Shown: in pieces, positions 1 to 14,677 of the stretch | Numbering within the stretch: the first letter of the stretch is position 1 | Layout: every line of letters starts with the position of its first letter | Assembly (NCBI RefSeq): GCF_001650195.1 | Contig: NZ_LXYR01000025.1 | Coordinates: 1-64,000, forward strand | DNA from: Phormidesmis priestleyi BC1401 | GTDB taxonomy: Bacteria > Cyanobacteriota > Cyanobacteriia > Leptolyngbyales > Leptolyngbyaceae | Length of the DNA stretch: 64,000 bases | Direction: 5' to 3' | The notes under the pieces: generated by a model | Databases searched by the model: none | What the model was told of the DNA's origin: nothing | Seen by the model: only the letters and a program-made list of their open reading frames with translations | Made by a program: the position numbers and the translations under genes

Positions 1-201
1 TGGCTATCCATCCGGTGCGCTTTGTTTCTAATCTGCACCCTAGCTGATGGATAGCTTTTCTGTCCACGTCTGACCGCAAAAACTGTCCGAACTATTGTAA
101 TTAATGAACTTCTACAAAAAATTGCTAGGCACGACAACTTTGACGACTGGTATCAAACGGGAAAGATTTCACTGGTCGTAGTCAAAGAATTCTGCCAGAA
201 A

Positions 202-1920
202 TTGAGGCAAGATGCTCGATTCGCAGGACAACCAGGGCGCTTCTACGCCTCCGTGGTCGCGATTGTCCATCGTATCTGTAAATCTTGGTTAGCTCTTCAA
301 GCACGTCTTAAGCAAAAGATTGCTGGGCAAACTCGATGGCTTGCCATTCTCCAAAGTGATGATGAGCTAACAGTTGCTATTCAGGGTAATCTGAGTACTC
401 TACAGCTCAAAGCCAGAGAGATTCTGGCTCAGTGCAGTTCTCCAACTTCAGCAGACGACGACCCTCAACCTAAAAAAGCTCGCAGCAGAAAGCAATCCGC
501 GCAAAAAACCAGGCAGCAGGGAGACAGTATTCCTAGTATGCTCTTCAGACTGTACGAACAGACAGAGGAAGTGCTGACTCAATGCGCGATCGTCTACCTA
601 CTTAAAAACGGCTGTAGAGTGCCTGAGAAACCTGAAGATTACGAAAAATTTGCTAAACGCCGTCGTAAAGTCGAAATTCGGTTAGAACGGCTCATGATGC
701 AATTCCAAAACAGCCGTCTTCCTAGTGGTCGAGATCTCTCTAATCAGACCTGGTTAAATGCATTAGCCCTTGCGACTACTCAGATGCCTGAGAACGAAAA
801 GCAAGCCACAGGCTGGCAAGCGAGTCTCCTTACTGAAGCCAGGTCTTTACCTTTTCCAGTAGATTTCGAGACGAACGAAGACCTTCGCTGGTTTCTGAAT
901 GAAAAAGGAAGACTATGTGTCAACTTTAATGGCTTAAGTGAACATTCATTTGAGATCTACTGTGATCAAAGGGATCTCCACTGGTTCAAGCGATTTCTAG
1001 AAGATCAACAAACTAGGAAAGCTAGCAAAAACCAACATTCAGCCAGCTTATTTACCTTACGCTCTGGGCGAATTGCTTGGCAGGAGGGTAAAGGCGAAGG
1101 TGAACACTGGAACATTCATCGGTTGATTTTATCCTGCACTGTAGACACTGATTCTTGGACTCAAGAAGGTACAGAACAAATTCGGCAGAAAAAAGCTAGT
1201 GAGTGTGCAAAAGTTATCGCTAGCACTAAAGTCAAGGAAAACTTGAGCAAGAACCAAGAAGCATTTATTAAAAGACGGACAACAATGCTGACTTTGCTTG
1301 ATAATCCATTTTCTCGTCCAAGCCGCCCTCTTTATCAAGGTCAGCCATCGATTTTAGCAGGTGTAAGCTATGGGCTTGATAAACCTGCTACTCTCGCGAT
1401 TGTCGATATTCAAACTGGCAAAGCTATCACGTACAGAAGTATCCGACAACTTCTGGGTGAAAACTATAAGCTTCTCAACCGATATCGTTTGCGACGGCAA
1501 CACAACGCTCATCAGCGGCACAAGAACCAGCAAAAAGGTGCATTCAATCGGTTTGGAGAATCCAACTCAGGAGAATATTTAGACCGTCTGATAGCTCATG
1601 AAATCGTGGCGATCGCTCAAAAATATCAGGTTAGCAGCCTTATATTGCCTGATCTAGGCGACATTCGAGAAATTGTCCAAGGCGAAGTTCAAGCTAAAGC
1701 AGAGCAAGAAATCCCCGGTTCTATAGAACTCCAACGACGATATGCCCTTCAGTATCGAGCCAGTGTCCATCGCTGGAGGCATGCTCAACTCAGCCAATGT
1801 ATCGGAAGCCAAGCTGCCCAAGTCGGCATTTCTATCGAGGTAGTGAAACAACCCTTTACAGGAACTCCCCAAGAAAAGGCTAAAAGTTTAGTGATCGCAG
1901 CCTATCAATCCCGAAAATAA
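202..1920 (+). CDS. cas12k: Cas12k (C2c5), RNA-guided target-binding protein of a V-K CAST
   Basis: Cas12k binds DNA as directed by a tracrRNA/crRNA pair and recruits TnsC, TniQ and TnsB; its RuvC domain does not cut. The protein tracks characterised Cas12k along its length: FAGQPGRFY near residue 9, the basic KFAKRRRKVEIRLERL segment, SLPFPVDFETNEDLRW, HWFKRFLEDQQT, a degenerate RuvC start at GVSYGLDKPATLAIVD, and the closing YRASVHRW and KAKSLVIAAY. Family members are about 630-640 aa. This open frame gives 572 aa from a TTG at 202, the first ordinary start codon. Homology clearly continues upstream in the same frame through INELL at about 106-120, to a stop at 52-54. The true N terminus appears damaged: see the separate finding. 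The tracrRNA follows directly. Confidence 0.9.
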   Translation: MRQDARFAGQPGRFYASVVAIVHRICKSWLALQARLKQKIAGQTRWLAILQSDDELTVAIQGNLSTLQLKAREILAQCSSPTSADDDPQPKKARSRKQSAQKTRQQGDSIPSMLFRLYEQTEEVLTQCAIVYLLKNGCRVPEKPEDYEKFAKRRRKVEIRLERLMMQFQNSRLPSGRDLSNQTWLNALALATTQMPENEKQATGWQASLLTEARSLPFPVDFETNEDLRWFLNEKGRLCVNFNGLSEHSFEIYCDQRDLHWFKRFLEDQQTRKASKNQHSASLFTLRSGRIAWQEGKGEGEHWNIHRLILSCTVDTDSWTQEGTEQIRQKKASECAKVIASTKVKENLSKNQEAFIKRRTTMLTLLDNPFSRPSRPLYQGQPSILAGVSYGLDKPATLAIVDIQTGKAITYRSIRQLLGENYKLLNRYRLRRQHNAHQRHKNQQKGAFNRFGESNSGEYLDRLIAHEIVAIAQKYQVSSLILPDLGDIREIVQGEVQAKAEQEIPGSIELQRRYALQYRASVHRWRHAQLSQCIGSQAAQVGISIEVVKQPFTGTPQEKAKSLVIAAYQSRK

Positions 1921-1954: not shown

Positions 1955-2160
1955 AATTAGATGCGCCGTAGTTCATGCCAGAAATGGTCTCTGTGCTATC
2001 GACAATTATGAGCTAGTTTGACTATTGGAAGATAGTCTTGCTTTCTGGCTTTGGTGACTGTCCACCTCGAAGTTGGGTGCGCTCCCACCAAAAAGGTGCG
2101 GGTCTACCGCAGTGATGGTTACTGTCTTCACCTCCGAGCAAGGAGGAATCCACCTTAACT
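1955..2160 (+). ncRNA. V-K CAST tracrRNA
   Basis: The segment between cas12k and the CRISPR array has the layout of known V-K tracrRNAs: an early GCGCCG-TAGTTCATG block, TAGTTTGACTAT followed by ATAGTCTTGCTTTCTG, then GGGTGCGCTCCCA with AAGGTGCGGGTCTACCGC, and a CCTCC...GGAGG hairpin. The hairpin is followed by AATCCACC at 2147-2154, an anti-repeat that can pair with the 3' part of CRISPR repeat 2 (GGCGGATT, one mismatch). The ends are approximate. No obvious promoter was identified. Confidence 0.85.
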
Positions 2161-2356
2161 GTTCAAATTGACAAACCGAAGCAAGGGCAAAATTCCTAGG
2201 AGGTTTGCCAAAAGGCTGTATTTCGCTCTGAGACTTCTTTTCGGAGGTTGTTCTCTAACCTTAAACGGCTGATGAAAAGCTAGAAATCAGGTTGAAAGCG
2301 AGGTTTGCCAAAAGTACTGCTGAAAAGCCTTTTGTGACTGAGTTTCAACGCTTAGG
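2161..2356. other. Spacer between tracrRNA and CRISPR array with a 15-bp direct repeat
   Basis: No gene is visible. GAGGTTTGCCAAAAG occurs twice, at about 2202-2216 and 2299-2313. A repeat-like 3' end, GGTTGAAAG, sits at 2289-2297, and GTTTCAAC, typical of the 5' end of V-K repeats, at 2342-2349. These look like eroded repeat-derived material or leader sequence; no intact repeat can be defined here. Confidence 0.4.
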
Positions 2357-2611
2357 GTTGCGATCGCCTTTCCAGCGAGAGGCGGGTCGAAAGTTAAGCC
2401 CAGACGGATCGAACTGGTTTACGATGACCGTCGCGATTGCCTTTTCAGCAGACGGCGGATTGAAAGTTGTAAATCTCTCTATACCGCTTGCTCCGATGCT
2501 TGTTGCGATCGCCTCTCCAACAAAGGATAGAGCAGAAGGATGTCCAGATTCTGTGGGAGCCATAAGACTCTTCGGTAGAGATCGTCTCTTTAGTCCTAAC
2601 GGAACTGAAAG
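2357..2611 (+). CRISPR. Short V-K CRISPR array with four increasingly degenerate 37-nt repeats
   Basis: Repeat-like units of exactly 37 nt lie at 2357-2393, 2430-2466, 2502-2538 and 2575-2611, giving spacers of 36, 35 and 36 nt. Units 1, 2 and 4 end in GAAAG (GGTCGAAAG, GGATTGAAAG, AACTGAAAG); unit 3 ends in GCAGAAG. Units 1 and 3 share GTTGCGATCGCCT; unit 4 matches unit 2 at about 21 of 37 positions. Regular spacing is the main support for units 3 and 4. The repeat end GGCGGATT of unit 2 pairs with the tracrRNA anti-repeat. No adaptation genes are near, as usual for V-K. Confidence 0.8.
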
Positions 2612-2629
2612 CAGTAACTTCAAAACTAC
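2575..2629 (+). ncRNA. Candidate homing crRNA: last degenerate repeat plus guide resembling tRNA-Pro
   Basis: The last repeat unit (2575-2611) is followed by CAGTAACTTCAAAACTAC. Within it, GTAACTTCAAAAC (2614-2626) matches the minus-strand T-arm of the adjacent tRNA-Pro, GTAGGTTCAAATC, at 10 of 13 positions, and the matching tRNA segment is preceded by GTC, a fit to the GTN PAM of Cas12k. The orientation and roughly 50-bp distance to the transposon end are right for a self-homing guide of the kind known from V-K elements. The 2-nt offset from the repeat end and the mismatches leave doubt. Confidence 0.5.
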
Positions 2630-2792
2630 TTAGGAACACTTAAATACTATAAATTTTGCTTATCAAAGCTAAGTGGTAAGTTTTTTAGTTTAGATTCATT
2701 GTTAGGGTGGACTGAAAGGCGCACTTCGTTCGGGATTGACAGCTAATGATTTAGCTGCCGTCCCCACTTGTTTTAGTCGAACTGACAGTCGA

Positions 2793-2914
2793 TGACATTA
2801 ACGTGTTAACGATCGCCAAGAAGTGCTAGATGACAAAAAGTCGTTAACGACGACATCAATCTGGTAAGGACGACATCAATTCGTTAACGATGACAAATAA
2901 AGTGTTATTCGACA
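2793..2914. repeat. CAST right end: TnsB-type binding repeats
   Basis: Four head-to-tail units of 20 bp lie at 2831-2850, 2851-2870, 2871-2890 and 2891-2910, with another at 2793-2812. They share a pattern of YGACA, an A/T-rich core and GTTAACGA; for example TGACAAAAAGTCGTTAACGA and CGACATCAATTCGTTAACGA. Arrays like this mark the ends of Tn7-like and V-K transposons, where TnsB binds. The outermost unit runs into TTCGACA at 2914, the likely terminus; the next five bases would be one copy of the target duplication. Confidence 0.8.
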
Positions 2915-2938
2915 GGACAGATGGACAAAAAATCAAAG

Positions 2939-3012
2939 TCGGGATGATAGGATTTGAACCTACGACCCCCTCGTCCCGAACGAGGTGCGCTACCAAGCTG
3001 CGCTACATCCCG
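2939..3012 (-). tRNA. tRNA-Pro (anticodon CGG)
   Basis: Read on the minus strand, the 7-bp acceptor CGGGATG pairs with CATCCCG followed by discriminator A. The anticodon stem-loop is CCTCG-TTCGGGA-CGAGG, giving anticodon CGG, and the T-arm contains GGTTCAAATCC. The 3' CCA is not encoded. The gene is intact although the CAST end lies only 24 bp from its 3' end, as expected for integration beyond a tRNA target. Confidence 0.95.
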
Positions 3013-3114
3013 CAATCAATATTGCCTAATCTAGATTAACACAAGAGCTTCCTCCTAAAATCTTGGGCTGCAACTTGTTAAGATAAGTCTTGCACAACTT
3101 CAGGACTAATAGGC

Positions 3115-3999
3115 GTGGTCGTTAAGCCAGACTGGTTAAGGGTTAAGGCTCCTCAATGGGAGCGGGTCGGCAACGTTAAAGAAATTTTGCGGGATTTGTC
3201 ACTCAATACCGTTTGCGAAGAGGCATCTTGCCCCAACATTGGGGAGTGCTTTAACAATGGCACTGCCACATTTTTGATCATGGGTCCCGCCTGCACGCGT
3301 GCCTGCCCCTATTGCGATATTGACTTTGAGAAGAAACCTCAGCCTCTCGACCCAACTGAGCCAGCGCGACTCGCAGAAGCTGTGCGGCGAATGCACCTCA
3401 ATCATGTGGTGATCACGTCTGTCAATCGCGATGATTTGCCCGATGGGGGAGCTTCTCAGTTTATGCGCTGCATCCAAGAGATTCGAGCCGTCTCGCCCGA
3501 CACGACGATCGAGGTTCTCATCCCCGACCTGTGCGGCAACTGGGGCGCATTAGAACAGATTCTCAGCGTCTCGCCTGACGTGCTGAATCACAATACTGAA
3601 ACGATCGCTCGTCTCTACCGTCGGGTGCGCCCTCAGGGAGACTATGCTCGATCGCTCGAACTCTTGCAGCGGACTCGCCAAATCAACCCTCACGTCTACA
3701 CAAAGTCGGGGATCATGGTCGGCTTGGGCGAAACCGATGCAGAAGTGCGGCAGGTGATTCGAGATTTGCGGGAGGTCAACTGTGACATTTTGACGATCGG
3801 GCAATATCTTCAGCCGACGCAGAAACATCTGGGCGTTCAGTCGTTTGTGACTCCTGACGAGTTTGATGCGTGGCGAGACTATGGAGAAGGGATCGGTCTG
3901 CTGCAAGTGGTCTCTTCGCCCCTGACGCGCAGTTCTTATCACGCTGAGCAAGTGCGAGACCTGATGGCAAAGTATCCACGCAAACAGGGTGAGGAATGA
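3115..3999 (+). CDS. lipA: Lipoyl synthase
   Basis: This radical-SAM enzyme inserts two sulfur atoms into octanoyl groups on lipoyl carrier domains. Both iron-sulfur sites are visible: the auxiliary cluster cysteines C34, C39 and C45 ([12 protein letters not shown]) and the radical-SAM cluster C60, C64 and C67 (CTRACPYC). [15 protein letters not shown] and the LNHNTET segment are also typical of LipA. The length of 294 aa is normal, starting at GTG. It overlaps gpsA by four bases (ATGA), so the two are probably cotranscribed and translationally coupled. Confidence 0.95.
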
Positions 4000-4925
4000 A
4001 GGTTGCCGTGATTGGCGCAGGTGCCTGGGGTTCGACGCTAGCAGGTTTGGCTAAAGATAACGGGCACCAGGTCAGTGTGTGGTCGCGTCAAAGCTCCGAT
4101 CGCCTTGAGACGGTGATTGATGGGGCAGCGATCGTGCTGTCAGCCGTCTCGATGACAGGGGTGCGGTCAGTGATCAAATTGCTAAAATCGCAGTCTCTTT
4201 CGCCCAACACAATTCTGATTACTGCCACGAAAGGACTCGATCCCGAATCAGGAACCGAGGTAGATTTGCCGCGATTGCCCTCCCAACTCTGGCAAGCCGC
4301 GTTTCCGACTCACGCGGTCACGATTCTCTCTGGACCTAATCTCTCAAAAGAGATTCAGCACGGGTTGCCTGCTGCAAGCGTGGTTGCCAGCACCAATCTA
4401 GCCGCTGCCGAACAGGTGCAATCTGTTCTTTCGTCGTCTCGATTTCGGATCTATACCAATTCTGACCCGTTGGGGGTTGAGTTGGGAGGGGCATTAAAGA
4501 ATGTAATCGCGATCGCGGTCGGTGCTTGTGATGGCTTGCAGCTAGGAACCAACGCCAAAGCCGCCTTGGTGACTCGCGGATTAGCAGAAATGATTCGGAT
4601 TGGGGCTTATTGGGGTGCAAATGCTGAGACGTTCTACGGTTTGTCAGGGTTGGGTGACTTATTAGCGACCTGCAACAGCCCTCTAAGCCGAAACTATCAG
4701 GTGGGCTACGGGTTAGCGCAAGGAAGTTTGTTAAAGGACGTTCTCAGCCAACTAGAAGGCACGGCGGAAGGAGTCAACACGACTCACGTTTTGGTGAAGT
4801 TGGCTCATCAACAAGCTATTTCTGTCCCGATTTCTCACCAGGTTTATCAACTGATTCAAGGCGAAATCACGCCCCGATCGGCGGTCGAAGCGCTGATGCT
4901 GCGTGACAGCAAACCAGAAGGTTAG
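3996..4925 (+). CDS. gpsA: Glycerol-3-phosphate dehydrogenase [NAD(P)+]
   Basis: The enzyme reduces dihydroxyacetone phosphate to sn-glycerol-3-phosphate for phospholipid synthesis. The N terminus carries the Rossmann motif [12 protein letters not shown] (residues 4-15). [18 protein letters not shown] and the long [17 protein letters not shown] segment with the catalytic lysine follow. The end is somewhat degenerate but the 309 aa are near the usual length. It overlaps the stop of lipA in an ATGA arrangement. Confidence 0.94.
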
Positions 4926-6617: not shown

Positions 6618-7453
6618 TCTACAAATCTGGTGCGAGCGGCTTGCGTCTGCTGAAGGGTTTCTTCAAGAGTCGTCCAATCCTGCTGGTCGATCGTGTGAAT
6701 CATCCGATCGAGCGTTTCCCGGTAGACTCGGAGCGATCGCAGCACTTCTTCGCGGTTATATCGTGCCATCATCAGCCCTAATTCGGGGTTGCCGCCGCCC
6801 ACTCGACTGGTATCCCGAAACCCGGAGCTAGCCAGCAATTGAGCGAGTTTGAGGCTGGCGGGATCAGCATCGCTTAGACAGGCAGTGATTAGACTTGCGC
6901 TCACCATTACAGGCAGGTGAGAGATCCAGGCAACTGCCCGATCGTGCTCGTCGGGCTGACAGTGATAAAGCCGCACTTGCAGCGGACGAATAATCGATTC
7001 GACCAGCGCGATCGCGTCCAATGGCGTTGCTTCAGTCGGCGTTAACACATAGGGGTTTCCCGCAAACAGACCGTGTTGGGCTGCTTCGATGCCGCTTTCG
7101 GCAGTTCCCGCCATCGGGTGCCCTCCCACAAAGTTACGCCACAGAGGAGTGATGTCTCGCACGATCGCAGCTTTCACCGACCCGACATCTGTTACTATTG
7201 TCGTCAGAGAAATATGCGGGATCAGTTGAGCGACCGTTGTTTGAACATATGCCAGCGGGGTGCAGATGAAAATTGCGTCTGTGTCTGCCAAGAGTGCTAA
7301 ATCTGTGACGGCTTCATCGGCTGCACCTCTTGCTACAGCAATGTCACAGGTTCGTTCTTGACGACTAACTCCTAAGACTCGATGACCGAGCGATCGTAAA
7401 TCTAACCCCAGCGATCCCCCAATCAACCCCAGACCCACGATCCCAATTTTCAT
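6614..7453 (-). CDS. tyrA: Prephenate/arogenate dehydrogenase
   Basis: This NAD(P)-dependent enzyme makes tyrosine precursors. It begins [20 protein letters not shown], a Rossmann fold with GxGxxG, and contains VTDVGSVKA and the [15 protein letters not shown] motif. The frame continues upstream to 7591, but the ATG at 7453 (279 aa) fits the family. The stop overlaps that of pgi. The start is 111 bp from the divergent pentapeptide-repeat gene, so both probably use the intervening region for promoters. Confidence 0.9.
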
Positions 7454-7564
7454 GCCTTGTCCATCCAACTTGCGTGCAGTGCTCCAGGCTAATTTTGATC
7501 TAGATCTGGGTACGTTAGCACCAAGCCGCCCCCCAATCTTGGGGATATTAGTCAGAAACTGTAG

Positions 7565-9121
7565 ATGAAAGCCGAGGACGTTCTGAAACAATATGCCGCT
7601 GGGTCACGAGAGTTTTCTGCCCTTGATTTGAGAGAAATCAACCTCGGCGGAGCTAATTTGAGCGGTGCAGATCTTAGCGGTGCTGATCTGAGCGTCGCCA
7701 ATCTTGCAGGAGCGAACCTCAGCCACGCTGACCTGAGCCAGACAAACCTCAGTGTTACTAAACTCAATGGTGCCAACCTCAGTAATGCAAAACTCAACGG
7801 TGCCAAGCTCAGTGCTGCCAATCTCACGATGGCTGATCTGCGAGAAGCCAAGCTTGTGCAAGCAGAGCTGATTAAGGCAGAGTTGACGCGATCGGACTTG
7901 AGCGGGGCTGACCTGCGGGGAGCCAATCTCAGCAATGCCGATCTGCGAGATGCCAAATTGCGCTACGCCAACCTCAGTCAAACTAACCTGAGTCGAGCCG
8001 ATTTGCGTCATGCCATTCTCACCGAGGCAAATTTAGAGCAAGCCAACTTAACCAGCAGTGATTTGAGCAGCACCGATCTCACGGGCGTTGATCTCAACCA
8101 TGCCGAACTTCGACAAACCAATCTCAGCCGCGCCAATCTGCAAGGGGCAAACTTATCAGGTGCCAATCTCCGATGGGCTGATTTGAGTGGTGCCAACCTC
8201 CGATGGGCGGATTTGAGTGGCGCGAAACTCAGTGGTGCCAACCTGACGGGAGCCGATTTGAGCCATGCCACCTTACTCAATGCCACGCTGGTGCACGTTG
8301 ACCTGACTCGTGCTAACTTAGCAAACGCCGACTGGTCAGGAGCCGACCTCAGCGGTTCTACAATGACGGGCATCAAGCTTCATGGTGTGTCGCCCTTTGG
8401 GATCAAAACGACTGGGGCAACCTGTCGCTGGATTGATCTCAGTCAGAATGGCGATCAAAGTCAGATTTATACCTTTGCCACTGAGAGTTGCCAGGAATAT
8501 TTTAATGAGATGCCCCCGATCGTGGAAGTGGTCATCGACGCTCGGCTCGACACAGATGCCAACTGCGCGTTAGCCGTCACCTATCAGCAGGTGGCGCGAC
8601 AGTGCGGCTTTTTGGCTCCCCCCCCTGAGATCGAAGCCCATTTACGCCGAACCACGTTAACGTTTCGGCTAGAGCGAGATGAGCAGCTGTTGATTGCGGC
8701 TTATGTGGCAATTTTTCCCTTTGAGGATAACAAAATGACTCAACAAACGTTGATGGACTTGCTGCACCAGATCCCCACCCAAAAACTTAGTCAAGATGCT
8801 GGAAAGATTCAACAGTTTCAGCAGCTTGTAACCGTATTGAGTCAACAAGTCCAACAAGTCAACGCCGTCAAACTGCTGCAATCCATTCCGATCGCCCTCA
8901 AAAAGATGACATTCTTTCAGGCACCGACCAAGACAATTCTGGTCAACTCTAATAATCAACGGCTGACGCTCTATCACAATCCCAAGTTTGGCAAACATCC
9001 GATCGTGACCTCTCAGTCTGATCAAGTGCTGAATGCGCTGAATCAGATTCAAAGCTTCAAGCCTCCATCCTTGGAGACCGCGATCGAGTTTGTGAAAGGC
9101 TTTCACCCAGGGTTAATGTGA
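7565..9121 (+). CDS. Pentapeptide-repeat protein with C-terminal alpha/beta-like extension
   Basis: Residues about 20-270 consist almost entirely of A(N/D)LSx pentapeptides such as GANLSGADLSGADLS, which fold into a square right-handed beta-helix. Residues about 300-518 are not repetitive and contain no motif I can name. The 518 aa start from the ATG at 7565. Cyanobacterial genomes carry many such genes, and their roles are mostly unknown. The strong repeats also open long antisense frames that are not genes. Confidence 0.88.
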   Translation: MKAEDVLKQYAAGSREFSALDLREINLGGANLSGADLSGADLSVANLAGANLSHADLSQTNLSVTKLNGANLSNAKLNGAKLSAANLTMADLREAKLVQAELIKAELTRSDLSGADLRGANLSNADLRDAKLRYANLSQTNLSRADLRHAILTEANLEQANLTSSDLSSTDLTGVDLNHAELRQTNLSRANLQGANLSGANLRWADLSGANLRWADLSGAKLSGANLTGADLSHATLLNATLVHVDLTRANLANADWSGADLSGSTMTGIKLHGVSPFGIKTTGATCRWIDLSQNGDQSQIYTFATESCQEYFNEMPPIVEVVIDARLDTDANCALAVTYQQVARQCGFLAPPPEIEAHLRRTTLTFRLERDEQLLIAAYVAIFPFEDNKMTQQTLMDLLHQIPTQKLSQDAGKIQQFQQLVTVLSQQVQQVNAVKLLQSIPIALKKMTFFQAPTKTILVNSNNQRLTLYHNPKFGKHPIVTSQSDQVLNALNQIQSFKPPSLETAIEFVKGFHPGLM

Positions 9122-9186
9122 GTGAGAACAGGAATCTTTATAGGGGAACGAGTCAGATTTCTGGATATTCGCGACGACTTTCTCAC

Positions 9187-9378
9187 TCAAACATCGACCG
9201 TTCCGGCTGTTCCAGCTAAGAGTGCGGCGATCGCACCAAGGACAATGTTAGCTGTCGTGTATCGAGTACTGTTGCGCTTGAGGAGATTCTTTTGCGTTTG
9301 CGCTTTTTCGAGGCTGCTAGAGATTTGTTCCCTCATTACATCCAGTTGTCTTGCCGGATCAGTAGAATTTGTGTTCAT
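9187..9378 (-). CDS. Small membrane protein of unknown function
   Basis: This 63-aa frame begins MNTNSTDPARQLDVMREQI, followed by a charged, probably helical region (LEKAQTQKNLLKRNS) and a hydrophobic segment [17 protein letters not shown] that could span the membrane. The composition resembles small conserved cyanobacterial proteins. The chain ends directly after the hydrophobic segment, so it may be a shortened copy of a longer family; I cannot tell from this sequence alone. Confidence 0.5.
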   Translation of the reverse strand: MNTNSTDPARQLDVMREQISSSLEKAQTQKNLLKRNSTRYTTANIVLGAIAALLAGTAGTVDV

Positions 9379-9439
9379 GGGTTTTTCTTCAAGACCTAAA
9401 ATTTGTCTCTTGCAATATCTAGTGTAGTGGTGAAACAGA

Positions 9440-11291
9440 CTACAGATAATAGTGAACCGTGGTCACGACTCGACTTTTCTTCGTCCGCAAGGCTGCTTTG
9501 AGAAATAAAGTCGTCTGGTTGTGCAAAACGCTTTCCCACCAACGACGGGGCACAAAGGCAGGAATGATAATCGTAGACAGCACATCGGGGTGTTGGTCTT
9601 CAAAGTCGCTGACGAACTGTAGGATTGGCGTAACGACCGATCGATAAGGCGACTCTAAAATATAGAGGTCAATATCAGACTCTAATTCCTGCCATCGCGT
9701 TTGCAGTTTTTCGCGATTAGTTGAGCCAGTGTCTACATGAATCGCGACGACTTCATCTCCAATACTCCGCGCATAGTCTAATGCCTCAACGGTGCCCCGG
9801 TGCAGTTGACCGACGATGACGATCGCCGGATGCGTTGCGAGTGCGCCTTTGGGTCGCGTCATATAGCTGCGAGGTGCCAATTCCTGAATGCTGAGACGGT
9901 TTGCCACATATTGATAGTGCTTCCGAATGCTCACAAACAGCCACACAAAAAGCGGAATCGCCAGCACAACGATCCAAGCTCCGATCGCAAACTTCGTCCA
10001 GACTACAATGACCAGCACAACTGCTGTTGCTAAGGCTCCTAGCCCATTCATCACGGCACTGGCTTGCCATCCGCGCTCTTTGCCTTCATACCAGTGAATC
10101 ACCATTCCCGCCTGAGACAGCGTGAAAGAGGTAAACACCCCAACTGCATAGAGAGGAATAATCGCAGTCGTGTCACCCCGAAACACCACAATTAGCACGG
10201 CAGCACAAATACTGAGCAGCAAAATTCCGTTTGAGTAGACGAGGCGATCGCCCAATAGCGCCAACTGCCGAGGCAAGAATCCATCGCGTGCCAAAAAGTA
10301 GCAGAGACGCGGAAAATCTGCATAACTGGTGTTGGCTGCCAACAACAAAATCGCCGGAGTCGCAAACAAAATCAGGAAATAATAGAGGGGCGAGATGCCA
10401 AAAATCTGCCGACTCAGCAGCGATAAAACTGTTTCTGATTCGTTAGGCACCAGTTGATAAATGTGGGCAAGATAGGTGATGCCCAAGAACATCAGACCCA
10501 GAATAACGCCCAGATAAAGGAGCGTCTGACGTGCATTGATCCACTCTGGCGGCTTAAACGCCAGCACTCCATCTGAGATCGCTTCAACTCCCGTCAGTGC
10601 CGTACAGCCCGCCGCAAACGCTCTCAAAATCAAAAACAAACTCAGTTGCTCAGTGACTTTATGCACGGTTTCGGCAGGCGGGATCGGCGTGAGTTGTCCT
10701 GTAACTTGGTTAAACATTCCGACCCCGATCAACACAAAAATGCTGACGATAAAGGCATAAGTCGGCACCATAAAAATGCGCCCTGACTCTTTTACGCCTC
10801 TTAAGTTCGTCAACATCAGCAAAAAGATGGCAACCAGACACAACTCGACGGTGAACGGACGCAGCACGGGAACCGCAGACACAAAGTTATCGATTCCGGC
10901 TGAGACGCTAACCGCCACTGTGAGAATGTAGTCAATGATCAGTGAGGCACCCGCGATTAAGCCCGACAGCAGCCCCAAATTGCCACGGGCAACAATAGTA
11001 AGATCCACCCCCCTTGGGATAAGCGCGAATCGTCTGCCGATAAGACAGGATGACTAGAACTAATAGCACTACGATCGCCCCCGCGATCGGCACCGAAAAC
11101 CCTAAGATGCCTGCCCCCGATCCCGCTGCAACTAAAACGATCAGGGTTTCTTGAGTCGCATAAGCAACCGATGAGAGCGCATCTGAAGAAAGCACGGCTA
11201 GGGCGGCGGCTTTGGTTAATCGCTCTTCGTCGTGGGCACTGGTTGGTAGCGTTTTACCCAATAAAAACTGCTTGACTTGAGAGAACGTCAT
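9440..11291 (-). pseudogene. APC-superfamily amino acid permease with C-terminal Usp-like domain, broken by one frameshift
   Basis: Two overlapping frames make one protein of about 615 aa. The first part (start 11291) runs through LSSDALSSVAYATQE to AYPKGGGSY; the second (to 9440) resumes with IVARGNLGLLSGLIAGASLI and carries the remaining membrane helices and a cytoplasmic tail (AIVIVGQLHRGTVEALDYARSIGDE) like a universal-stress domain. The break is near 10996-11000, where one extra T in TCTTACTATTGTT destroys the conserved GGGSYIVAR. Deleting one base restores the full reading frame. Either a recent mutation or an assembly error is possible. The family imports amino acids or related solutes. 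Confidence 0.8.
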
Positions 11292-13147: not shown

Positions 13148-14677
13148 GTGATTGAGGTAGAAGTTCATCAGCAACTCCGCGCCTTTCTGCGAGAGCAGGG
13201 CGAACCCTATTGGTCTCACCATTTAACAATGGCTCGATTAGTGGCGCGTGCCCTACGGATCGGTCGCAGTGCTCTGATTCAAACCGGGGCACCGTCTGGC
13301 TATCATGGGCGCTATCGCCTCAGCTATCTGGTGCCGATTTTGATGTGGAAAGGGTCAGTGATTGTGGTAGCTCCCGAATCGGTTCAGCAACGGCTGCTGA
13401 TGGTTGAGATTCCACGGTTGCGACAGTGGATCGATACGCCCAAGCCGATTCGCACAGGCGATCGCTGGGTCAGTCCTGATTTTGAAGGAATTTTGCTCAC
13501 GACTCCAGAAGCTTGGTTAAGCGATCGACTCAACAATGAAGGCAGATTTCCGTCTGATATTCCGACCATTATTGACAACGTAGATGATCTCGAAAGCTGG
13601 GTGCGAAATCAACTCACGATCGATCTACAGCCTTCAGACTGGAATGATTTGATGTTGGCGTGTCCTGAACAGACCGAAGAGATTCGGGATGCACGGGTTC
13701 AATTGACGAAAACGATTTTTCATCATCCCGCCAATCCCTACGAGTGTTACTTAATTGAGCAATCCGAACAGGATATTCTCGATTCACTGGCTCAAATCCT
13801 TCCTTCCTCATTGCCCGATCGCTGGGGTAACTTTTTCGATCGCGTCCAGTCTGAAGAACAGCTTGTTTGGGCAACGATCGCCCGTCCGTTAGGGCAGTTT
13901 TCTCTCCACTGTGCCCCTATTGAAATCGCGTCGAGATTAACGTCGATTTGGTCGCAGCAGCCAACTGTTTTAATTGGCGGCGCACTGGATCTTGAATCGG
14001 ATGCCATGACTTATCGACAAAAATTAGGGTTGAGTCAAGATCTCACCTGTTTGAAATTTTCGCTCGATCGTCAAGATGACCTCATTCAGCTTTATCAGCC
14101 TGACGGCATTCCGATGCCCAACACGCCTCAATTTCAAGGAGGGTTGCTGCAAGAACTGCGATCGCTTCTGAGTGCCAGCACTGCCGTGCAAGGGCTATCG
14201 GTAATTTTGGTTGGTGATATGCCGCTCAAAGCCCAGGTAGGAAGCGTTTTGGCATCTGAGTTTGGCTCTAGAGTCCAAGTTGAGCGCACCTGTCTCGACG
14301 ACAACGGCATTTTAGTGACGGGCTGGGAATTTTGGCGAGAGCATCAGAGTGTGCTGCCTGCGCCCCGACTGTTGGCGATCGCGACTCTGCCCATTCCCTC
14401 GCTAGAAAATCCGCTGGTTGCTGGGCGGGTTGCTCACTACAAAAAGCTCCGTCAAGACTGGTTTCGGCTCTACTTATTTCCAGAAGCGTTGAGTGAATTG
14501 CAGCGCGCGATCGCTCCAGTTCGCGAATGTCAAGGAGTCGTTGCACTTCTAGACAGTCGAGTGATTCACCGCAGCTATGGCAATCAAGTTTTGGCAGCTC
14601 TTAGCCCTCTAGCGCGAATTAATTATCTAGATGCCAGCTTGTTTACAAATCTGCCAGGAACAGGTTGGCAAGATTAA
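13148..14677 (+). CDS. DinG/XPD-like helicase homologue with degenerate ATPase motifs
   Basis: The 509-aa layout follows DinG-type superfamily 2 helicases. The Walker A position reads QTGAPSGYHGRYRLSYL (residues 45-61) without the GKS/T lysine. The DEAH position reads TIIDNVDDLE (140-149). A C-terminal half has LPIPSLENPL and a late VVALLDSRVIHRSYGNQVL as in the helicase C2 domain. Related cyanobacterial proteins are often annotated as helicases. Loss of both ATP motifs suggests a non-catalytic DNA-binding or scaffold role, which is inference. The start is GTG 13148. Confidence 0.65.
   Translation: MIEVEVHQQLRAFLREQGEPYWSHHLTMARLVARALRIGRSALIQTGAPSGYHGRYRLSYLVPILMWKGSVIVVAPESVQQRLLMVEIPRLRQWIDTPKPIRTGDRWVSPDFEGILLTTPEAWLSDRLNNEGRFPSDIPTIIDNVDDLESWVRNQLTIDLQPSDWNDLMLACPEQTEEIRDARVQLTKTIFHHPANPYECYLIEQSEQDILDSLAQILPSSLPDRWGNFFDRVQSEEQLVWATIARPLGQFSLHCAPIEIASRLTSIWSQQPTVLIGGALDLESDAMTYRQKLGLSQDLTCLKFSLDRQDDLIQLYQPDGIPMPNTPQFQGGLLQELRSLLSASTAVQGLSVILVGDMPLKAQVGSVLASEFGSRVQVERTCLDDNGILVTGWEFWREHQSVLPAPRLLAIATLPIPSLENPLVAGRVAHYKKLRQDWFRLYLFPEALSELQRAIAPVRECQGVVALLDSRVIHRSYGNQVLAALSPLARINYLDASLFTNLPGTGWQD

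Follow-up and report, generated by a model that had tools for sequence, protein, structure and literature searches.

A type V-K CAST beside tRNA-Pro(CGG) in Phormidesmis priestleyi BC1401 and its predicted delocalized homing crRNA

The window, i.e., the whole 64,000-nucleotide stretch of Phormidesmis priestleyi BC1401 DNA analysed here, starts at the edge of contig C25 and inside a type V-K CAST, whose features are collected in Table 1. The cas12k product matches the PADLOC Cas12k profile (E 4e-249, profile 32-620) and, from residue 32 on, the ShCas12k structure 7n3o. A multicopy IS interrupts the gene behind codon ~32, and the N-terminal part lies at C103:7163-7266; contig C103 (L163; G000 C103:7163-7853) carries the first ~32 cas12k codons, the other IS end and a DDE transposase (PF01609), with a 7-bp duplication (TAATTAA) at both IS junctions. 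Since the IS splits cas12k, the CAST is probably inactive now, and probably immobile at present unless complemented. A degenerate array follows, and the 37-nt repeat that the initial annotation placed at 2575-2611 is indeed present there. The transposon terminus at 2914, also proposed in that annotation, lines up with the CGACA/TGTACA termini found in relatives, and the tRNA-Pro(CGG) gene lies 24 bp beyond it. A search for the right end by terminal-repeat pattern recovered only the left end itself, and since the assembly does not join the right end to contig C25, no target-site duplication could be confirmed.

Table 1. Features of the CAST and its attachment site at the start of the window.
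Feature	Position	Strand	Basis
IS end (multicopy), cuts cas12k	1-97		97-98 bases that recur at seven further contig ends of the assembly
cas12k, residue ~32 to end	98-1920	+	PADLOC and PDB matches; first ~31 codons on contig C103
tracrRNA region (limits approximate)	1955-2330	+	Identity to relatives; R* complementarity at 2059-2068
CRISPR repeat 1, degenerate array	2357-2393	+	37/37 (reference for other repeats)
CRISPR repeats 2, 3, 4	2430-2466, 2502-2538, 2575-2611	+	28/37, 25/37, 20/37 identical to repeat 1
Last degenerate array repeat and following sequence (candidate of the initial annotation)	2575-2645	+	10/13 match, chance level
Truncated repeat R*, GGGTGGACTGAAAG	2705-2718	+	Position and form as in R* of 30 other V-K loci
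17-nt anchor (putative homing) spacer, GCGCACTTCGTTCGGGA	2719-2735	+	16/17 to tRNA-Pro, GTA PAM
Transposon left end, TnsB-site-like repeats, terminus ...TTATTCGACA at 2914	2791-2914	+	Repeat family; termini of relatives
Protospacer GCGCACCTCGTTCGGGA, tRNA-Pro anticodon arm	2974-2990	-	PAM GTA at 2993-2991
tRNA-Pro(CGG), attachment site	2938-3012	-	ARAGORN; Rfam RF00005, 65.6 bits

For published V-K systems, a truncated repeat R* (~12 nt) and a 17-nt anchor spacer are described, together with a GTN PAM and 46-82 nt from the PAM to the left end (PMC9938897), and such delocalized homing crRNAs have been reviewed (PMC11406308 and PMC11656645, citing Saito 2021 and Hsieh & Peters 2021). When the region was scanned against the tRNA, a single strong match was found, namely the anchor directly 3' of R*, which agrees with the tRNA minus strand from 2990 to 2974 at zero offset and next to a GTA PAM. 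The analytic probability of a 16/17 match by chance is ~3e-8, and the best among 60,000 random 17-mers compared with the tRNA reached 13/17. R* lies outside the array, ends in GAAAG and is best complementary to the tracrRNA region within the tract listed in Table 1; from the PAM to the transposon left end there are 76 nt, inside the published range. A sigma-70 scan for a promoter belonging to the R*-anchor unit found none, and the fold of 2612-2720 was no more stable than shuffles (z -0.1). Together with the side of insertion, the transposon end and the covariation across relatives described below, the sequence match, the PAM and the distance support a homing guide at this position, and the V-K CAST was almost certainly homed to tRNA-Pro(CGG) by a delocalized crRNA composed of R* and the anchor. 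Transcription, loading and activity of this crRNA are predicted from sequence: paired with the tracrRNA it would load Cas12k, the loaded Cas12k would bind the tRNA-Pro anticodon arm beside the GTA PAM, and insertion would be directed to a point 76 bp from the PAM, past the 3' end of the tRNA, so that the tRNA would be left intact.

Covariation of anchor and target was examined in a search of 386 cyanobacterial genomes, 40 of which contain Cas12k; 40 stretches were taken, mostly DNA 3' of a cas12k. R* and a 17-nt anchor with a matching adjacent target and a GTN PAM were present in 27/40 stretches, with targets in tRNA genes for Gly, Val, Ala, Pro, Thr, Phe, Lys, Met, Leu and Arg, and, in one stretch (L050), at a site without a tRNA call. 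Adding the window and three further loci gave 31 V-K loci, in which each anchor matches its own target at 16-17 of 17 positions (mean 16.6) and the sites of the other loci at a mean of 8.6; this own-target fit was attained by none of 20,000 permutations, a test that omitted stretches with no R*-anchor match, several of them cas12k fragments. As these loci were selected by their own match, two other observations constitute stronger independent evidence. One is a scan for the Pro anchor preceded by TGAAAG, carried out independently of any tRNA: it returned 30 named cyanobacterial contigs, the anchor being identical in 29 of them, and in 29/30 a tRNA-Pro(CGG) of opposite orientation, with a GTA PAM, follows at a distance of 200-393 nt (28 of these at 17/17, one at 15/17); in one of the 30 contigs (L139), a C-variant anchor is paired with a C-variant tRNA. 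The other is a same-genus locus (G386:C42) that shares 93% identity with the window across the tracrRNA-first repeat region (1920-2393), and yet carries a different anchor and target, tRNA-Val(UAC), matched at 17/17. The closest relative found, G401:C223, has a Cas12k 70% identical to that of the window and the same tRNA-Pro target, to which its anchor matches at 17/17; the anchor block is the same in both, amid a region of ~70% nucleotide identity (70% over the tracrRNA-first repeat region). Separately, L156, reverse-complemented, shows at 13300-13580 (G386 contig C116) left-end-like TnsB-site repeats ending in CGACA beside the same tRNA-Pro, with no anchor found there; these repeats are either a relic or the trace of another insertion at this site.

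The idea of a built-in crRNA aimed at the adjacent tRNA-Pro, with its strand and side, was already put forward in the initial annotation and holds; the guide sequence proposed there does not. According to that proposal, the terminal array repeat and a spacer starting 2 nt after it direct the CAST to the T-loop, with GTC as the PAM. GTAACTTCAAAAC at 2614-2626 does match GTAGGTTCAAATC at 10/13 positions with GTC in front, the 49 bp between this PAM and the transposon end fall within the 46-68 range of relatives, and part of the post-array sequence is conserved in G401. The match is nevertheless at chance level. When 13-mers at offsets 0-4 were compared with every site in the tRNA and its flank that has a GTN in front, 10/13 or better was reached at 0.6% of positions drawn at random from the window, in 0.9% of segments after shuffling and at 1.0% of intergenic-region positions (i.e., 0.6-1% per repeat end, given the freedom of offset and PAM that had been used), and 2/114 ordinary array repeat ends (28 loci) reached 10/13. 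The similarity of the T-loop sequence in most tRNAs and the 2-nt offset from the repeat end also speak against the proposal. In G401, with the same tRNA, the homologous post-array sequence GTTACTTCAAAGC agrees with GTGGGTTCGAATC at 8/13 and has GCC at the PAM position instead of a GTN, and in G386:C42 no blastn counterpart was found beyond the first repeat. Covariation with the target tRNA, which had been suggested as a check, was seen for the anchor and not for the post-array sequence. Chance statistics and the G401 comparison are grounds to reject the 13-nt match as homing guide, and the far better guide formed by R* and the anchor accounts for the site, leaving the earlier proposal extremely improbable. 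The anchor falls within the interval originally delimited (2575-2966), where it was overlooked; the guide it forms lies ~100 bases from the location first proposed and targets the anticodon arm.

Two features count against homing by R* and the anchor, the single mismatch to the local tRNA and the PAM-to-end distance. At position 7 the anchor has T and the host tRNA C, a difference that corresponds to an rU-dG wobble, with which anchor-tRNA pairing would remain possible. It is explained by the anchor fitting the common tRNA variant, the host family mostly having the other one: the C variant occurs in 4/5 host-family genomes read at this locus, so that the element probably originated in T-variant hosts or is adapted to them. 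The same observation, together with the interrupted cas12k, would fit an anchor that is a relic: the tRNA may have matched when the element arrived, or the element may have arrived in another host, and its guide would have ceased to work on the C-variant tRNA. We consider this unlikely, as the element does occupy the predicted site, and one mismatch to the own target is also found in 12/30 other natural insertions, for which reason single mismatches look tolerated. Exactly one anchor-target mismatch occurs in 13/31 loci, at position 15 in 7 of the 13, among them four tRNA-Ala(CGC) anchors, each of which interrupts the octamer GCGATCGC there. That natural V-K anchors carry single tRNA mismatches non-randomly is an improbable proposition; the excess at position 15 was judged weak (by hand) because related loci are not independent. 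If true, such mismatches might serve to adjust homing, or they might stem from relaxed pairing at the PAM-distal end.

The PAM-to-end distance of 76 compares with 46-68 in the sampled relatives (28 scripted values; those of L056 and L075 were set by eye from printed ends), and owes its length to a ~10-nt stretch, GGACAGATGG, that follows the end and is absent in G401. At 2915-2927 the window reads GGACAGATGGACA, with GGACA repeated at 8-bp spacing, and is ~10 nt longer than G401 there; a second event at the junction may have produced this sequence.

Set beside the published R* and anchor (PMC9938897), the window likewise has an R* of ~12-14 nt ending in GAAAG, a 17-nt spacer directly after it, a GTN PAM, a target in an adjacent tRNA gene with insertion past the tRNA 3' end, 37-nt array repeats and a tracrRNA 3' of cas12k. 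It differs by the T-C mismatch to the host tRNA, by a PAM-to-end distance on the long side and by the IS interrupting cas12k. The CAST of G401:C223 is alike in Cas12k, R*-anchor position and tRNA-Pro target; its anchor matches a T-variant tRNA in full and its cas12k frame is intact, neither of which holds for the window. The locus is a further example of an arrangement whose principle is already published, and in this sense it is ordinary. Its interest lies in that the true location of the homing guide is established for this CAST, and that the same genus offers a clean case of a near-identical tracrRNA region combined with another 17-nt anchor and a correspondingly different tRNA. Single-mismatch anchors may also help studies of Cas12k mismatch tolerance in nature.

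Other CAST genes of this genome lie on separate contigs. A second, diverged Cas12k-like gene is located upstream of tRNA-Val(CAC) (L084, contig C97, ~2200-4340), where the same scan found no R*-anchor. A single V-K-type TnsB was found in the genome, accompanied by TnsC and TniQ; it starts 357 bp after dnaN on contig C8 (L089, C8:119000-130924, at 6974-10415), which is not joined to C25, and the block is either a second CAST end or the outcome of a rearrangement. That this TnsB belongs to the other half of the window CAST is plausible: on C8 the V-K TnsB, TnsC and TniQ are followed by BrxA, and PglZ and BrxL precede the cas12k start on C103. The link is unproven because C8 borders dnaN, which in relatives lies far from this tRNA-Pro (1.5 Mb apart or on different contigs). 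Before cas12k, C103 (L163, 487-6840) encodes PglZ, BrxL, ParA-like and ParB-like proteins and a DndA/SspA-like cysteine desulfurase, and a BREX defence system may be cargo of the CAST.
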